Assembly: GCA_017541035.1 (NCBI GenBank)
Contig: JAFXZW010000093.1
Location: 1 to 34,640 of the forward strand
Origin: Eubacterium sp.
Lineage (GTDB): Bacteria; Bacillota; Clostridia; Lachnospirales; Lachnospiraceae
Direction of reading: 5' to 3'
DNA: 34,640 nt
Below, piece after piece: positions 146 to 7,087 of the stretch. Made by a program: the position numbers and the translations under genes. Below the pieces are notes generated by a model. It did no database searches, was not told the origin of the DNA, and saw nothing but the letters and a program-made list of their open reading frames with translations. Positions within the stretch are counted from its first letter, which is position 1. The number at the start of each line of letters is the position of its first letter.

Positions 146-1540
146 TTATATCAGCGGCGTTACCGAGGTCCAGCCGGGAAGGGCCTGTTCAAACCGTTCC
201 ACCCAGCCACCCTCAAAGAAGGTGCAGGCTGTAGGATCGTAAGCCAGATAATCACCTTTACTGTGAAGGAAGCCCAGCGCCGGACAGCCACCCACACACC
301 AGGTGTACCATTTGCAGAAAAGACATTTGCTATTGTGGAGTAGACGCTGGTGTACGGTAGCATGAGCGATTTCACAATAACGTCCATCCTGCATCATGGG
401 AAGCAGTCCGTCCTGAAGCACATTCCCCAAAGAAATTCCATATGCATTCTGGGTTCCCTGACACTGCATGCAGGGAAAAAGCTCTCCATCCGCGCCCACA
501 GCCGGCATTCCGTTCATCGTCATACAGATGGGATGCGTGGAACGATAATTTCCGGTATGATAAAGAACGCGGTGAAAGCGATAGGAACGAATTGCCGGCT
601 TCATGGTAATAATCTGCCAGAAGTCCAGTTCGGCTTCACAACCATCCCGGGCATAACAGAATGCCTCATCCAACGCAAATTCAAGATATTCATCCCAGGT
701 AAAAGATGCATCCGGCGCATTTTCAGCCCAGCGCGGAGTCGGTGTCGTACAGATCACCCGGATACGCGGCACACCCATTTCCGAAAGAAATCTGAGAGTC
801 GGACGGATCGATTCCCTGTTTCTGCGATTTGCGTTCACCTGTACCCGTACCGGAACATGCGCATCCACACACAGCCGGATCGCTGCCAGCGTTTCCTGTT
901 CCGCACCCGCATGATTCCGCATCCAGTCGTGAAAACCCAGACCGTCGAAGGATATTTTGATCTCCGGCATGTAACCCAGGGATTGAAAAAGCTCCAGGAC
1001 ACCGGATGTCAGAAGCCGTCCGTTGGTATTCAGTTCATGGACAAACATATCCCGCCTGTACACCGCCTTTACAATATCGGTAAAATGGGAATGAACAAGG
1101 GGTTCCCCCCCTGTAATGAGCACAGCCTGAACGCCGGCAGCAGCCGCATCATCCAGCACCCGTCCATACTGTTCCGGCGTAAGCTCCGAAGAAAGACGCG
1201 CGTTATCGGCAGCATTAAAGCAGTGGAGGCAATTATAGTTACAGCGTCCCGTGATTTCCAGTGAAAGCCAGGGCATGACCCGGCAGGGATAGCTGCGGTG
1301 CCGCTGCCAGGGTGACAGACTTCTCTCTCCTTTTTCACAGGGCTTTATCATTCGTATTTCTTCCAGCCGGGTAAGCTCCGGCGAATTCGGAAGATCCGTC
1401 ATACCGTCACAGCTTAGCGCTATACGAAACTCCTCCGGAGAAAGACGGATCGGCATGTCCATAAACCGGCGTACTGCGGTATACGGTGTCCTTTCCCAGG
1501 ATCTCAATGCCACATCAGGGGCAAGGATATAGTAACCCAT
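146..1540 (-). CDS. Radical SAM/SPASM peptide maturase of the RiPP operon
   Basis: A 464-residue cytosolic enzyme predicted to modify the Cys-rich precursor encoded at 6650-7012. The radical SAM motif is C100-x3-C104-x2-C107, followed by GGEP at 144-147. The C-terminal SPASM region has C339, C357 and C360, then C406-x2-C409-x5-C415-x3-C419 and C439, enough to bind auxiliary Fe-S clusters. Residues 1-85 precede the barrel and could hold a small leader-recognition (RRE/PqqD-like) domain; that is inference. SPASM maturases of known RiPPs form thioether or carbon-carbon crosslinks, but the chemistry here cannot be read from sequence. The ATG follows an AGGAGG that lies inside the 3' end of the upstream ABC gene, and the two genes are 2 nt apart. 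It is the last gene of the operon. It is not assignable to a named maturase subfamily with certainty; Cys-rich-peptide maturases of Clostridia are the nearest idea. Confidence 0.88.
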   Translation of the reverse strand: MGYYILAPDVALRSWERTPYTAVRRFMDMPIRLSPEEFRIALSCDGMTDLPNSPELTRLEEIRMIKPCEKGERSLSPWQRHRSYPCRVMPWLSLEITGRCNYNCLHCFNAADNARLSSELTPEQYGRVLDDAAAAGVQAVLITGGEPLVHSHFTDIVKAVYRRDMFVHELNTNGRLLTSGVLELFQSLGYMPEIKISFDGLGFHDWMRNHAGAEQETLAAIRLCVDAHVPVRVQVNANRRNRESIRPTLRFLSEMGVPRIRVICTTPTPRWAENAPDASFTWDEYLEFALDEAFCYARDGCEAELDFWQIITMKPAIRSYRFHRVLYHTGNYRSTHPICMTMNGMPAVGADGELFPCMQCQGTQNAYGISLGNVLQDGLLPMMQDGRYCEIAHATVHQRLLHNSKCLFCKWYTWCVGGCPALGFLHSKGDYLAYDPTACTFFEGGWVERFEQALPGWTSVTPLI

Positions 1541-1542
1541 TG

Positions 1543-3744
1543 CTAAGCCTCCTGCCTTTTCACCAGCTCATAGAATGCCCCGCGGGCTGCCATCAGCTCT
1601 TCATATTTCCCTTCCTCCACGATCCGTCCGCCCTCCAGCATGCAGATCCGATCACAACTGCGGATCGTAGAGATCCGATGAGCGATCACGATCCTCGTAC
1701 AGCCAAGGGCGTCCAGACTGTCGGTAACGATCTGCTGGGTATCATTATCCAACGCACTTGTCGCTTCATCAAACATGATGATGTCCGGTTTATTTACCAG
1801 CGCCCGCGCGATGGCGATCCGCTGCCTCTGTCCCCCTGAAAAGCCGGTTCCTCCCTCTGGCACGATGGCATGCATGCCCATGGGGATCTTCCGGATATCC
1901 TCGGCGATGCCCGCCGCTTCCGCAGCCCGCCAGGCATCCTCCTCCTTAAGCCAGGGCGCCGAAATGACGATATTGGAGAACACATCTCCCTTAAACAGCT
2001 GCGATTGCTGCAGCACGACCCCGATATGTCTCCGCAGATCATGCATATCGATCTCCGTGACAGCATGGCCATCATAACATATCGAGCCCTTCTGAGGTTG
2101 TTCAAAGCCAAGAAGAAGACGCATGACAGTGGATTTTCCGCACCCGCTGGCGCCCACCAGAGCCAGATACTCTCCCGGCTTTATCGAAAGGGAAAAATGA
2201 TCGATCACCGGTTTTTTGCCGGATTCATATGCAAAGGTGATATCCGTCATTTCAATACGACCTGAGGGTGATCCGATGGAGGGCATTTTTCCATATAGCT
2301 CCGGCTGTGTCTTCATGATCGGATCCGCATTTTCCAGCTGAGGCTTAATGCCGGCAATGGTACCCGCCACACCGCCCAGCTGCTGAAATGCAACCAGAAG
2401 AATTCCGAAAGCGCTGTTAAAAGCCATGTACTGACTGACACTGATACCTGAAGCCACAGAGGAACCATAAATGGCTATGGTGCCGATCAGGGTGATCGCC
2501 AGCGAGATCACGCCGGAAAGGCGCATGATCAAAGGACCGTTATAGGTCAGACGGGCCGATGCGGCATAACGGGAAGCCCATGTGGCATAGGCATGATTTT
2601 CCACTCCGAATAGTCGGATGGTTTTAACGGAACCCAGTACTCCGTTCTCCCATCCGCAGAGATCCCTGATCAGTTTTGTGCTTTTCCGGTTTACCCGAAG
2701 CTGAACCATCGTGAGTGAGACTGTCAGGATCAGATTCGCGGATATGATTATGATCGCTGGAACACCGAGAGATGGTGTAATCGCAAAGATCTGACCGAGA
2801 TACGCAAGCGAAAAAACGGCTGAAAGTGCCGTATCCAGCACAACCTGCTGCAGCATACTCGCCAGAGAACGAAAGCTGCCCATGATCACGGAAAGCTCAC
2901 CGGAGGAATACTTACCGAAAAATGATGCCGGAAGGGACAGCACTCTTGCCATGGTCCCCGCTTCGATACTGCGAGAGAGCCTCGTTCCCACTCCATCCAT
3001 CACCAGCGATTTTGCCGCCCCGATCAGTGCCTGCGCCACGGCAACGCCGATCAGCAGTGCAAGTGCATTCGGAAGAATGGATGCTTCACCGGAAGCCAGT
3101 ACCGGACCGAACAGCATGGCGTTGGCTGCCGGAACCAGCATTCCAAGGCCTGTTGAGAAAACCATTGCGCAAATGATCAGGATAATATCCTTCAGCTCCA
3201 GACTGCGCGCCATATAAAACAAAATGTCACGTAAATGAAGGCTCCGCGCCGGAAAAGCTCTGTAAAAACAGAATCCTTCCTCACCGAAACGAGACACATT
3301 TTTCCTGCCGACACGATTCTTTTTCCCGGTCTTCGGGTCAATCCATGCATATCCCAGACCATGGGGAACCAACGATACAGGCTCTTTTCCGTCCAGAACC
3401 GCCACCATGACACCGACCGCGTCCCTGTACCAGAGCCCTTCCAGTGAAACACGGCGGCACTGGATGCCGGAAGTACGAAGAGCATCCTGCAGCATGCGGT
3501 CTGTCTGATCCAGCGTATCTTCTCCATCTTCCGGGAATGCCTTCTCTTCGTTTTTTCTGATGGGCTTTACTCCCATACGGGAAAGGACCACATCAGAGAC
3601 ATCCCGGGTTTCCCGCGCCTCATCCGACTCACTGGTAATCGCCTGTGCAAGCAGCTTTACAGCTTCATCCAGCGTGCGCTCCTGGGATTCCAGGGCAGCT
3701 TCCCGATCCTTATGAAATTCTTCATACGGGTTTTTTCCGTTCAC
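1543..3744 (-). CDS. NHLM-type ABC transporter, ATP-binding/permease protein without peptidase
   Basis: A 733-residue ABC half-transporter of the NHLM bacteriocin-export type (second ABC subunit). About 170 N-terminal residues form a soluble domain with no C39 catalytic Cys. An exporter membrane domain follows at roughly 185-460. The nucleotide-binding domain has Walker A GASGCGKST (531-539), signature FSGGQRQR (635-642), Walker B IIMFDEAT (655-662) and H-loop His689. The start is GTG at 3744, with AGGAGG six bases upstream. The gene lies 10 nt after the peptidase-bearing ABC gene, so the two products probably form a heterodimer in the membrane. In NHLM systems this subunit regularly accompanies the peptidase ABC protein and a membrane-fusion protein, as here. 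The family assignment rests on domain layout and neighbours. Confidence 0.86.
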   Translation of the reverse strand: MNGKNPYEEFHKDREAALESQERTLDEAVKLLAQAITSESDEARETRDVSDVVLSRMGVKPIRKNEEKAFPEDGEDTLDQTDRMLQDALRTSGIQCRRVSLEGLWYRDAVGVMVAVLDGKEPVSLVPHGLGYAWIDPKTGKKNRVGRKNVSRFGEEGFCFYRAFPARSLHLRDILFYMARSLELKDIILIICAMVFSTGLGMLVPAANAMLFGPVLASGEASILPNALALLIGVAVAQALIGAAKSLVMDGVGTRLSRSIEAGTMARVLSLPASFFGKYSSGELSVIMGSFRSLASMLQQVVLDTALSAVFSLAYLGQIFAITPSLGVPAIIIISANLILTVSLTMVQLRVNRKSTKLIRDLCGWENGVLGSVKTIRLFGVENHAYATWASRYAASARLTYNGPLIMRLSGVISLAITLIGTIAIYGSSVASGISVSQYMAFNSAFGILLVAFQQLGGVAGTIAGIKPQLENADPIMKTQPELYGKMPSIGSPSGRIEMTDITFAYESGKKPVIDHFSLSIKPGEYLALVGASGCGKSTVMRLLLGFEQPQKGSICYDGHAVTEIDMHDLRRHIGVVLQQSQLFKGDVFSNIVISAPWLKEEDAWRAAEAAGIAEDIRKIPMGMHAIVPEGGTGFSGGQRQRIAIARALVNKPDIIMFDEATSALDNDTQQIVTDSLDALGCTRIVIAHRISTIRSCDRICMLEGGRIVEEGKYEELMAARGAFYELVKRQEA

Positions 3745-3754
3745 TGTCTGCCTC

Positions 3755-5935
3755 CTATCCCCTTGCCACCAGTCCTGCGTAGGATCCGCCCTGAGCCATC
3801 AATTCCTCGTGTGTACCCCGCTCAATGATCCTGCCATGCTCCAGCAGGATGATCTCATCACAGTCACGGATCGTGGACAGCCGATGCGCAATGACAAGCA
3901 AGGTCCCGCCCCTTTTTCTGATGGCGTCCATGACTGCCTTCTCGGTACGGGCATCCAACGCACTGGTTGCTTCATCCAGGATCATTACACGCGGATTTCT
4001 GACAAGTGCCCGGGCGATCTCCACCCGCTGCCGCTGCCCACCGGAAAGGTTGCGGCCGCCTTCCGAAACAACAAAACCGTATCCGCCGTCCATGGCTATT
4101 ATATCCTCATGGATACAGGCATCCTGTGCGGCACGGATCACATCGGAATCAGAGAAGGAGCTGTCCCAGAGACGGATGTTGTTCATCAGGGAATCATTCA
4201 TGATAACAGGATCCTGACATACCATGGTTACGTTGGAGCAAAAATCAAAACGATTAACATGAGAGACCGGCACGCCATCCAGAAGAATCTCTCCTTCCCA
4301 AGGTTGATACAAGCCCGCCATAAGCGCTGCCACGGTGGATTTTCCTGATCCGGACCCGCCTACCAGTGCAACCGATCTTCCTGCCGGAACCTGAAAGGAA
4401 ATATCCCTGATAACCGGTTCCTCCTTCAGTGTATAACCAAAAGACACCTTCCGGAATTCCAGTTCACCCCGGATACCCTCCATGGCTTCATAATGATCGG
4501 CATCATAGATCACGTCATTTTCGGCATTCATGACATCATTGATCCGTTCCATATCCGTGCGTATCTCCGCAAGCGTCTGCAGAGAGCCGATCACCTCACT
4601 GACCGGCCCGTAAAACTGGGAGAAATAGCCCTGAAAGGCAAGAAGCATTCCGCTGGTGAAATGTCCCTCTATGATCAGCAGGATTCCCACTACGAGAACG
4701 ACAGCGTTGGCAGATGCTGATACGATCTGCGGTACGATACCGATGGAGGCGCCCAGCTTCGCCATACGGACCTGCTGTGCATTCGCCTGCGCCTGATAAG
4801 CTGCCCAGGTCCGGAAAAACCCATTTTCCGCTCCCGATGCCTTAAGTGTTTCAATGGTCTGAATCCCGGCCATCGTGGCTGTCGACAGATTTGCCTCATC
4901 CCTTGTCTGGGCACGGGTGATATTGATCCTTTTTGCCGCGGCGATCCTGGCCACGAAAATGTTCACCGTGATCGCTGCCACGCCAACAAGCGCCAGTACC
5001 GGAGAGTATGCGATCATGATGACCAGATAGATCACCAGCATCAGCAGATTCACCGGGATCGGCGCAAGGATTGAGACTAGATTCTGGGACATATTTGCCG
5101 TTGTGGAAAGGCGCGAGGCGATATCACTCACGGAGCGCTGCGCATAGAAATCGATGGGAAGATGAAGTGCCTTCCACATGTAACCGGAGGCGGAGGTAAC
5201 ATCAAATTTACCCTTTAACCTGAGCAGATATACGGAATTCAACGCAGAGGAAATGAGCTGAACGGCACTCACGCCGATCAGCACGAGAATAAACGGCACC
5301 AGCCAGGCCATATTCCGCTGCTCCAGAAGCCTGGTGACAAAAACCTGCGAAAGTACCGGATTCATAAGACCCACTATGGCCGTAACTAAAGCGGTAAGTG
5401 ATGTAAAGATGATAGCTGCCTTCGCCCCCCGGAGGTACGAACGCACAAAAGGAAGAATGGAGGTTCTCTCCCCTTCCGGTTTAAAATTCTCTCCCGGTGT
5501 CAGGCAGATACAGATGCCTGAGAACGCCCGATCGAAGGTCTCCCAGCTGCAGGTATATTCTCCCTGTGCCGGATCATTGATCAGAACCTTGTTGCCGCGA
5601 AATCCCCGCACCACAACAAAATGGACACTGTTCCAGTGAATAATGCAGGGAAATGTGGCCTTTTCGCGCAGACGCTCCGGCTCAAAACGATATGGCTGTA
5701 CATCAAAACCATAGCTGACCGCAGCGCGTGCAACATTTCCGGCCTTTGCGCCGTCCTTCCCCACACCGCAGTCACGGCGCACGGTTTCCAGCGTCAGCCA
5801 TTTTCCGTAATAGGCGCAGATCATGGCCAGACAGGCAGCTCCGCACTCCATTGCTTCCATCTGCATGATCTGCGGAACCTTATCAGCGCACACGCCCTCT
5901 TTTCGTATTTTATCCTTCCCCTTCGTCCCTGCCAT
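3755..5935 (-). CDS. NHLM-type peptidase-containing ABC exporter (C39 leader peptidase)
   Basis: A 726-residue export protein that should cut the leader after a double glycine and move the core peptide across the membrane. Residues 20-140 are a C39 peptidase domain: Gln25 (oxyanion), catalytic Cys31 in ECG, His105 in VHFVVV and Asp121 in NDPAQG. Several membrane helices follow (about 165-440). The nucleotide-binding domain has Walker A GGSGSGKST (526-534), LSGGQRQR (630-637), Walker B VMILDEAT (650-657) and H-loop His684. All catalytic residues are present, so it is expected to be active. The ATG is 3 nt from the stop of the membrane-fusion gene, with GGAG just upstream. The likely substrate is the VAGG-terminated leader encoded at 6650-7012. 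Confidence 0.92.
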   Translation of the reverse strand: MAGTKGKDKIRKEGVCADKVPQIMQMEAMECGAACLAMICAYYGKWLTLETVRRDCGVGKDGAKAGNVARAAVSYGFDVQPYRFEPERLREKATFPCIIHWNSVHFVVVRGFRGNKVLINDPAQGEYTCSWETFDRAFSGICICLTPGENFKPEGERTSILPFVRSYLRGAKAAIIFTSLTALVTAIVGLMNPVLSQVFVTRLLEQRNMAWLVPFILVLIGVSAVQLISSALNSVYLLRLKGKFDVTSASGYMWKALHLPIDFYAQRSVSDIASRLSTTANMSQNLVSILAPIPVNLLMLVIYLVIMIAYSPVLALVGVAAITVNIFVARIAAAKRINITRAQTRDEANLSTATMAGIQTIETLKASGAENGFFRTWAAYQAQANAQQVRMAKLGASIGIVPQIVSASANAVVLVVGILLIIEGHFTSGMLLAFQGYFSQFYGPVSEVIGSLQTLAEIRTDMERINDVMNAENDVIYDADHYEAMEGIRGELEFRKVSFGYTLKEEPVIRDISFQVPAGRSVALVGGSGSGKSTVAALMAGLYQPWEGEILLDGVPVSHVNRFDFCSNVTMVCQDPVIMNDSLMNNIRLWDSSFSDSDVIRAAQDACIHEDIIAMDGGYGFVVSEGGRNLSGGQRQRVEIARALVRNPRVMILDEATSALDARTEKAVMDAIRKRGGTLLVIAHRLSTIRDCDEIILLEHGRIIERGTHEELMAQGGSYAGLVARG

Positions 5936-5938
5936 GAC

Positions 5939-6424
5939 CTACTCCAATCCCAGCAGCAGACGAATGGGACGGTGCCGCGCCGTGATCACCCAGGCACTGT
6001 ATACACCCTGTGCCGCGCCGGATTCCATTTCCAGCTTCACTCCCCAGGTATCCGAACCAAAGGCCTCAGCCGCTTCTTCTCCGCAGAGCTCACGTACCGT
6101 ATCAAGCGATACCGGTACATCTCCGATGGCGGTTACCGTTCCCTGCTCCTGTTCATCCCTGCGGGTCAGTTCGATGGTATCCCCCACCTTGACCTCGGAA
6201 GCACGGGACAACGGAATATATGCCTCCGCTGTATTTCCCCGGATCAGAACACCGGCCGGTACCTTCTGTGTGATCGTTCCTGCAAAAAACCATATGATAA
6301 ATGCAGTCAGAAGCACAACAATCGTACCGAGAAGCAACCAGACCCCCGGCTTGGACACTTTGATATAGGTTCCCAGCTGATCAGGGGTAAGCCCCTGTCG
6401 GCTCTTTTCACGAAGCTTGACCAT
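5939..6424 (-). CDS. Minimal HlyD-like membrane-fusion protein of the NHLM exporter
   Basis: A short accessory subunit for the adjacent ABC exporter, 161 residues from the ATG at 6424. A cytoplasmic N-terminus with the segment GLTPDQLGTYIKVSKPGVW leads into one membrane helix (about 32-52). A roughly 100-residue extracellular part follows, resembling a lipoyl/beta-barrel pair (IPLSRASEVKVGDTIEL). The long coiled-coil hairpin usual in HlyD proteins is absent. The start at 6424 is preferred because GGGAGG lies six bases upstream. The frame stays open to a TTG at 6556 and on to a stop at 6575-6577, but no good ribosome site supports a start there. The stop is 3 nt from the next gene, so translation is probably coupled. 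Confidence 0.78.
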   Translation of the reverse strand: MVKLREKSRQGLTPDQLGTYIKVSKPGVWLLLGTIVVLLTAFIIWFFAGTITQKVPAGVLIRGNTAEAYIPLSRASEVKVGDTIELTRRDEQEQGTVTAIGDVPVSLDTVRELCGEEAAEAFGSDTWGVKLEMESGAAQGVYSAWVITARHRPIRLLLGLE

Positions 6425-6575
6425 TCCGACCCTCCCGGATCCTCTGCGCGAACTGCCGGCCTGCTGTGGCAAAGATTTCTGTACGACCTGCATTTCCTTA
6501 TCATCCGTACAGGTGAAATATTTGGAGAAAACAGCCGGGGCAGTAACTACGTTCAACTGCTTCAGGTTCTTATAC

Positions 6576-6635
6576 TATGATGCTGGGGTCAAAAGGTATT
6601 TTGCCCCCAGCTGATGATTCGCAGCACGCACGCTA
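6576..6635 (+). repeat. Truncated copy (A) of the dispersed hairpin repeat
   Basis: It begins TATGATGCTGGGGTC, like the copies at 30791 and 33761. It follows them through GGGGTCAAAAGG, the block GATGATTCGCAGCACGCA and a few bases more, then diverges at about 6635. The right half, including the far terminal inverted repeat, is missing. It lies between the precursor gene and the membrane-fusion gene, inside the RiPP operon. This is either a decayed insertion or a half element kept for its hairpin. Confidence 0.8.
6583..6610 (-). promoter_or_regulatory. Strong intergenic hairpin within the RiPP operon
   Basis: On the transcribed strand, CTGGGG and CAAAA pair with TTTTG and CCCCAG around a TACC loop, with one internal mismatch (about 11 bp). 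No U-run follows, so it is not a textbook terminator. By position it could limit read-through or protect the 3' end of the precursor message, giving more precursor than exporter. That role is inferred. Confidence 0.5.
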
Positions 6636-6649
6636 TGGGTATCCGTAAA

Positions 6650-7012
6650 TCAGAGATAATACCCTCCGCCCTGATTTCTGTACACATAACTGTAGTTACG
6701 TTCACAGGCATAGCAGTACATGGAATACACCGTATTTCCCGTTTTCGTTTCGCTGCCCAGACAACGGGTTTGCGTACTTCCGCAGTACTTGCACTTTTCA
6801 TGCTTTTCCGTACAGCCTCCTGCCACGTCATCCAGGTCGTCAATTGAAAGCTTCTCGGACGGATGCAGGCGGGAAAAAGCTTCCTTTGCAGATTCCTCCG
6901 TCATTTCCACCCCTGCTTCCTCAGCCAGCTTCAGGAGCTCCTCCGCGCTGGCTGCTGCCTTTGCCTTTTCCATCATTTCGTCCGTTACGCCGTTCATAAA
7001 TCCGTCTTTCAT
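6650..7012 (-). CDS. RiPP precursor peptide: double-glycine leader plus six-Cys core
   Basis: A 120-residue peptide expected to be modified by the radical SAM enzyme and exported. The acidic helical leader (1-66) includes EELLKLAEEAGVEMTEE and ends LSIDDLDDVAGG, typical of Nif11/NHLP-type leaders cut by C39 peptidases after GG66. The predicted core (67-120) has Cys at 67, 74, 77, 84, 100 and 103. The pairs C74-K-Y-C77-G and C100-Y-A-C103 look like two zinc-ribbon knuckles, and the tail is rich in Tyr and Gly. The ATG has a strong AAAGGAGG nine bases upstream, consistent with high expression. It is the first gene of the operon. Function of the product is unknown; antimicrobial or signalling roles are possible. 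An unmodified exported zinc-ribbon protein is the main alternative. Confidence 0.85.
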   Translation of the reverse strand: MKDGFMNGVTDEMMEKAKAAASAEELLKLAEEAGVEMTEESAKEAFSRLHPSEKLSIDDLDDVAGGCTEKHEKCKYCGSTQTRCLGSETKTGNTVYSMYCYACERNYSYVYRNQGGGYYL

Positions 7013-7087
7013 TGCTTTTTTCCTCCTTTGCTCTTTTTCTTTATCCTCCGTAATGATTCATGGAATCTTCCGTTCGTTTTCAAAATA

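Follow-up and report, generated by a model that had tools for sequence, protein, structure and literature searches.

Genes of the window

The window analyzed here is a 34,640-nucleotide stretch of DNA from a Eubacterium species of the Lachnospiraceae (contig JAFXZW010000093.1), and our subject is a run of genes at positions 146-7012 of the type that makes ribosomally synthesized and post-translationally modified peptides (RiPPs). The whole run lies on the minus strand; the precursor gene is read first, followed by genes for a HlyD-like protein, an ATP-binding cassette (ABC) protein carrying a C39 peptidase, a second ABC protein, and a radical S-adenosylmethionine (SAM) enzyme with a SPASM domain (Table 1). 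An initial annotation had located the open reading frames (ORFs) of the precursor, both ABC proteins and the radical SAM enzyme correctly on this strand and had overlooked the HlyD-like gene. A strong ribosome site, AAAGGAGG (7022-7029), stands upstream of the precursor ATG. The first base of the window is also that of its contig, so further genes may lie downstream of the radical SAM gene. Our preferred interpretation, held at slightly less than even confidence, is that the run makes an exported zinc-ribbon mini-protein by RiPP logic.

Table 1. Features of the gene run and dispersed precursors in two related genomes (C, Cys; cut-offs in bits)
Feature	Position	Strand	Basis
Precursor ORF	6650-7012	-	ORF reading
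Nif11-like leader, residues 1-66, end LDDVAGG	6815..7012	-	TIGR03798 30.7 bits (curated cut-off 32.3), PF07862 20.1 bits (cut-off 23.8), three helices in model
54-residue core from Cys67	6653..6814	-	Alignments and structure model; stop codon 6650-6652
Cys67, residue 1 of core, proposed docking or modification site	6812..6814	-	N-terminal Cys statistics in relatives
First knuckle C74-K-Y-C77, Gly78 next	6782..6793	-	Invariant Cys in aligned precursors
Cys84, extra Cys	6761..6763	-	Outside invariant and near-invariant columns of relatives
Second knuckle C100-Y-A-C103	6704..6715	-	Invariant Cys in aligned precursors
Hairpin, possible expression-ratio element	6582..6611	-	Minimum-free-energy fold, gap between precursor and HlyD-like gene
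Short HlyD-like subunit, uncertain start	5939..6556	-	TIGR03794 20.6 bits (cut-off 156.2)
NHLM exporter subunit 1: C39 peptidase, membrane and ATPase domains	3755..5935	-	TIGR03796 834.1 bits (cut-off 853.3), PF03412 117.8 bits (cut-off 22)
NHLM exporter subunit 2: membrane and ATPase domains	1543..3744	-	TIGR03797 651.5 bits (cut-off 709.4)
Radical SAM/SPASM maturase, N-terminal domain resembling a RiPP recognition element (RRE)	146..1540	-	PF04055 70.7 bits (cut-off 29.5); invariant Cys; model
Dispersed ribbon precursors	G255: L178-L181, L185-L212; G689: L232-L248

A Nif11-like leader and a zinc-ribbon-like core

The leader ends in the VAGG that had been read initially, at residues 63-66. 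The initial annotation had also proposed a search against RiPP precursor families, in which the leader found its best match in the Nif11-like family TIGR03798, aligned over residues 12-66 and reaching the end of the model, but with a score below the curated cut-off; the PF07862 match is likewise under its threshold. With a leader that ends in GG, is predicted to form three helices and precedes a variable core, the precursor has the arrangement of Nif11-like precursors, and the leader is, judged from its sequence, Nif11-like.

The Cys residues of the precursor, at 67, 74, 77, 84, 100 and 103, are exactly those first reported, and by comparison with relatives they fall into three groups: the four knuckle Cys (74, 77, 100 and 103), an N-terminal Cys that also occurs in non-ribbon cores, and one unshared extra. 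The knuckle Cys are present in every one of 25 aligned precursors and in all of 39 aligned cores, window included, the rows of both alignments having been picked for the two-knuckle pattern; Gly after the knuckles and Pro inside them are far above background. Structure prediction, from an alignment picked in the same way, places strands at residues 82-90, 93-100 and 106-112 (block values of the predicted local distance difference test, pLDDT, 83-89 for residues 71-110 and 51 for 111-120), so that two CxxC knuckles would sit on a three-stranded sheet, as in a zinc ribbon. The first description of a six-Cys zinc-ribbon core thus holds in part: relatives, weak profile matches and predicted structure support a zinc-ribbon-like core, but the pattern common with ribbon relatives is one Cys plus four, and Cys84 is not conserved.

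In fold comparison the best likeness of residues 70-115 is to the N-terminal zinc ribbon of NrdR, itself an intracellular repressor, with 14-21% identity over the aligned part. Foldseek against the PDB gave no match to the precursor at E ≤ 0.001, with NrdR first at E 0.05, and no Pfam zinc-ribbon model exceeded its cut-off for the core, the sole match being Zn_ribbon_NrdR at 14.2 bits against 27.2 (E 0.043). Aart, a protein of tandem C2H2 fingers and the top PDB sequence match, was attributed to CxxC composition and rejected as kin. A rubredoxin-like iron centre in an exported electron carrier would also fit the CxxC...CxxC arrangement, and rubredoxin chains do appear in the PDB profile search; they rank there below L37Ae and RPA12, however, and with NrdR first in the fold comparison we consider this reading very improbable.

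The putative maturase and the exporter

The enzyme carries CxxxCxxC at residues 100-107 and scores well over the PF04055 cut-off, as expected of a radical SAM protein. The initial annotation had counted eight extra Cys; there are nine from residue 339 on, and seven of them (339, 357, 406, 409, 415, 419 and 439), the number expected of a SPASM domain, are invariant in 44 aligned enzymes, window included. The Pfam SPASM model itself scores slightly below its cut-off (20.6 against 21.5 bits). The structure model (pLDDT 91.7) aligns with anSME, SuiB, ChlB and SkfB; the alignment with SuiB, made with the whole model, runs from residues 4-5 to 440-442. That the enzyme modifies the window core we infer from gene order.

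An ordinary sactipeptide or ranthipeptide, in which all Cys, those of the knuckles too, are tied up in thioethers and the ribbon look is incidental, is an alternative to which we give a low probability. The Gly and Pro enrichment at the knuckles and the zinc-ribbon profile and fold matches speak against it, as does the fact that no named sactipeptide or ranthipeptide maturase model exceeds its cut-off among the matches listed (25 of 77 families; 9 in another search): StsB reaches 56.9 bits against 625, PapB 52.9 against 340, and SkfB 65.0 against 300.

A C39-fused ABC protein, a second ABC half and a HlyD-like subunit together make up an NHLM exporter, the HlyD match being weak. The C39 peptidase and its catalytic residues are as first described, with Cys (ECGAAC), His (VHFVV) and Asp (INDPAQG) read in the sequence, and so is the second ABC half. 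TIGR03796 and TIGR03797 both score under their cut-offs, each being the best model for its own protein. A HlyD-like homologue occurs in 32 of 80 related loci. The hairpin ahead of the HlyD-like gene, which has no T-run, may set the ratio of precursor to exporter expression; the whole 101-nucleotide stretch has a z-score of -2.0, and 8 of 200 shuffles fold equally well. The window's own genome has four full-length TIGR03796 matches (604-918 bits), counting that of the window.

Precursors in related loci

We collected 174 precursors, namely 171 from the 80 related loci, two from a same-genus locus (L003) and that of the window. By leader profile, precursors with GG occur in 61 of the 80 loci, 33 of which also have a C39-ABC gene, and 24 loci have precursor, HlyD and both ABC genes, counts that are affected by the shortness of many of the contigs. 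The genes often run HlyD, ABC1, ABC2, then one to six precursors and the enzyme. Two CxxC motifs 8-45 residues apart are found in 62 of the 174 precursors (31 of the 80 loci and the window), against a mean of 4.5 (standard deviation 2.0, maximum 12) in 1000 shuffles, a control that flatters the excess because related precursors are not independent. The pattern is therefore not the one-off that it had seemed initially, since many ribbon and non-ribbon cores adjoin the same enzyme family. A second recurring core type, CN...GxGCA..A..SA..GHVGQ...GRLCN, lies beside an enzyme of this family in L022, L027, L030, L038 and L050.

Among the 172 cores of at least 10 residues, residue 1 is Cys in 116 (17.3 when shuffled), and 143 have a Cys among residues 1-3 (mean 45.8 and maximum 64 on shuffling). 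This N-terminal Cys is present in 60 of 72 non-ribbon and 44 of 54 ribbon cores encoded on the strand of the enzyme and no more than 3 kb from it. It is the most widely common core feature found and, on this comparison, a candidate site of enzyme action. In a small control of three genomes of an order sample that have no such enzyme in the stretch read (G149, G099 and G167), 0 of 11 precursors have a Cys in the first three residues, and both precursors of G280, beside a distant enzyme (203 bits), have one. The sample comprised 294 genomes, seven of which matched at E ≤ 1e-6, and it overlooked the genome G255 treated below, so it is a poor guide to the rarity of ribbons. Among the precursors read, the ribbon pattern occurs only in G295; there, four precursors directly follow a related enzyme, three fitting the pattern and the fourth having CxxC and CxxxxC. 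In seven usable precursor pairs outside G255 and G689, Cys is conserved in 53 of the 55 columns that contain it, and the core has a nonsynonymous rate (dN) lower than the synonymous rate (dS) in five pairs, nearly equal rates in a sixth and no change at all in the last; pair L014, out of frame, was left out.

A different possibility is that the core is an exported metal protein which the adjacent enzyme leaves unmodified, the enzyme serving other precursors and the exporter alone handling the ribbon. Very different cores accompany the same enzyme family, and the own genome holds other Nif11-like precursors, one of them beside a paralogous enzyme on contig C109, both of which suit this view; precursor, enzyme and exporter form one tight minus-strand run, however, and L013 (Sporofaciens musculi), L056 (Eubacterium sp. 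14-2) and L057 each have a ribbon as the sole precursor detected. We rate it as rather improbable, a little below the thioether alternative. The second enzyme on C109 has a short core (TGGFWDCPW), and second enzyme, precursors and TIGR03796 matches are spread over C109, C8, C18, C123, C136 and C62.

The window precursor was also searched against 61 genomes (its own, 36 of the same genus and 24 of the same order), and outside its own genome only a weak match in G027 appeared (E 0.0085); a second own-genome match, on C121 (E 7.7), was dismissed as chance. G027, a same-genus species, has three precursors with CxxC...CxxC cores near a distant enzyme (L092, 188 bits). No plasmid record matched the enzyme and no phage record the precursor, and viral contigs held 19 distant relatives by enzyme profile (24-36% identity).

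Expansion in two related genomes

Ten of 299 family genomes matched a precursor profile at E ≤ 1e-8, some without ribbons, and G255 stood out. A profile of its own precursors has 34 matches, spread over 12 contigs; contig ends truncate some of them, the last is weak (E 2e-5), and not all gave a locus. We read 31 distinct cores, counting a ribbon ending AISGG, removing one partial copy, and leaving out a truncated leader and a leader-like peptide beside the enzyme, both without GG. Thirty are ribbons, 18 of them with five Cys and no more, and 30 of the 31 have a Cys in the first three residues. At E ≤ 1e-40 a single enzyme of the family is found in this genome, and at E ≤ 1e-120 a single NHLM ABC1; contig C4 carries the two. 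Mean identity is 79% for leaders and 34% for cores, two sequences without the GG pattern, one a ribbon, being left out; such diversity in one genome would be odd for the single redox role of a rubredoxin-like carrier. Genes near the G255 maturase look, on reading, like those for a sigma factor, a STAS protein, an anti-sigma kinase and a phosphatase-like protein.

G689, a second species of the genus of G255, has at least 13 precursors (13 candidates scored); of 17 sequences read there, one a shortened copy and one with unread residues, 15 are ribbons. Matching by core similarity gave fourteen reciprocal pairs between the two genomes. By eye, all 13 ribbon pairs conserve the N-terminal Cys and the four of the knuckles, and only extra Cys differ; pooled, and excluding the non-ribbon pair b16/a17, dN and dS are 0.044 and 0.212 for leaders and 0.063 and 0.071 for cores. 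Apart from their Cys, these cores thus appear to be nearly as free to vary as silent positions, judged from a small number of changes.

Distribution over the enzyme tree and neighbouring genes

On a tree of 90 of the 92 enzymes (two short ones were dropped), ribbon cores are scattered, which implies that they were gained and lost, or swapped. The ribbon as a marker of a single enzyme clade was rejected, as the trait requires 14 changes, at least 13 of them forced, yet its clustering exceeds that of shuffled labels (mean 20.5 changes, 2 of 500 as low). A core swap is shown by L023:231-335 and L040:4469-4573, in which an identical ribbon core (dS 0) stands behind diverged leaders (dS 0.89).

The window enzyme groups with those of L004 and L005, whose precursors have a Hint module behind GG-Cys, so the core type of the window is absent from its nearest known enzyme kin. 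These precursors (L004:4397-5221 and L005:6080-6793, both minus strand) comprise a Nif11 leader, GG, Cys, some 17-20 residues and the Hint module, which matches PF01079 barely below the cut-off in both (E 3.2e-6 and 1.9e-5) and PT-HINT in L005 (3.9e-5); in our reading the usual His is apparently replaced by Gln. Their N-terminal Cys and C-terminal Hint module could allow self-cleavage or head-to-tail ligation. Precursors of this type, searched in 397 family genomes, gave matches to the Hint part only, in 6.

A comparison of partner genes in 30 loci and the window found a sigma-70 or extracytoplasmic function (ECF)-type gene in 10, a second family in 6 and others in 3-4; the sigma-type gene is absent from the window's row. 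It lies near the enzyme in L013 (11528-12076), L059 (6820-7416) and 8 other loci, two members being confirmed by Pfam.

Proposed mechanism and significance

For the exported zinc-ribbon mini-protein that we favour, fold and family suggest that the Nif11-like leader would recruit the radical SAM/SPASM enzyme through the N-terminal domain of the latter. The core would fold as a zinc ribbon, with Cys74, 77, 100 and 103 binding Zn or Fe, and the enzyme would act near Cys67, whose sulfur might be joined in a thioether to a residue close by; alternatively, Cys67 might bind an auxiliary cluster during the alteration of a different residue. The C39 domain would cut after GG66 and the paired ABC subunits would export the product, whose role outside may be antagonism or signalling between bacteria. 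In relatives the same chassis carries many cores, and one genus combines about thirty dispersed precursors of ribbons with one family enzyme and one exporter.

Two observations weigh against this proposal. An N-terminal Cys is equally usual in cores farther from the enzyme or on the opposite strand (37 of 44), and so is not tied to enzyme nearness, and it is missing in two of the four G295 precursors. For these reasons we lowered our confidence both in the proposal and in its extension, which we hold more tentatively still: that there is a class of exported RiPPs with folded, metal-binding zinc-ribbon cores, in which four Cys would serve the metal and an N-terminal fifth the radical SAM reaction, and that some bacteria use one enzyme and one exporter for about thirty dispersed precursors, as a combinatorial library of metal mini-proteins.

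RiPP cores are usually viewed as short peptides that owe their shape to the modification. If our proposal is true, the core is instead a small folded protein shaped by metal, with its Cys divided between metal and enzyme, and the substrate range of radical SAM maturases is wider. It would also offer a ready scaffold of a few dozen residues and one metal, with a surface that evolves freely, and would suggest that gut bacteria exchange metal mini-proteins, a traffic not yet studied. The rule of one Cys plus four provides a clear and cheap test.

Comparison with known systems

The Nif11/NHLM precursor systems of Haft, Basu and Mitchell (2010, PMC2887384) share the Nif11-related GG leader, the hypervariable core and an exporter of the TIGR03794/03796/03797 type; they have heterocycle and lanthionine enzymes, whereas here a radical SAM/SPASM enzyme accompanies zinc-ribbon cores, and the main text of that article uses "radical SAM" 0 times and "zinc" 2 times, once for a cyclodehydratase. 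The layout of G255 resembles that of the prochlorosins, in which one promiscuous enzyme, ProcM, serves Nif11-family precursors; in the portions of PMC10783134 covered, ProcM makes lanthipeptides, whereas a radical SAM enzyme and cores resembling folded zinc ribbons are found here. In a Lachnospiraceae cluster, the C39 protease of an AMS/PCAT transporter, LahT (LahT150), likewise cuts Nif11-type leaders ahead of widely different cores and provides a precedent for such cleavage; that cluster is a lanthipeptide one, and "radical" occurs 0 times in the main text of PMC6363468. Ranthipeptides, or SCIFF peptides, with CteB are alike in radical SAM and SPASM domains and in a Cys-rich substrate, with an RRE that the N-terminal domain here resembles, and the parts of PMC8326336 covered place the core-start Cys of the CteB substrate close to an auxiliary cluster; the cores here carry CxxCG knuckles, and the PapB, StsB and SkfB models lie far below cut-off. 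Among titles and abstract openings of the open-licence literature, nothing linked zinc-ribbon or Hint cores to radical SAM RiPPs. The leader, the exporter and the superfamily of the enzyme all belong to known kinds, and what is new, as far as searched, is the zinc-ribbon core, the rule of one Cys plus four and a genome with one enzyme for many ribbons.
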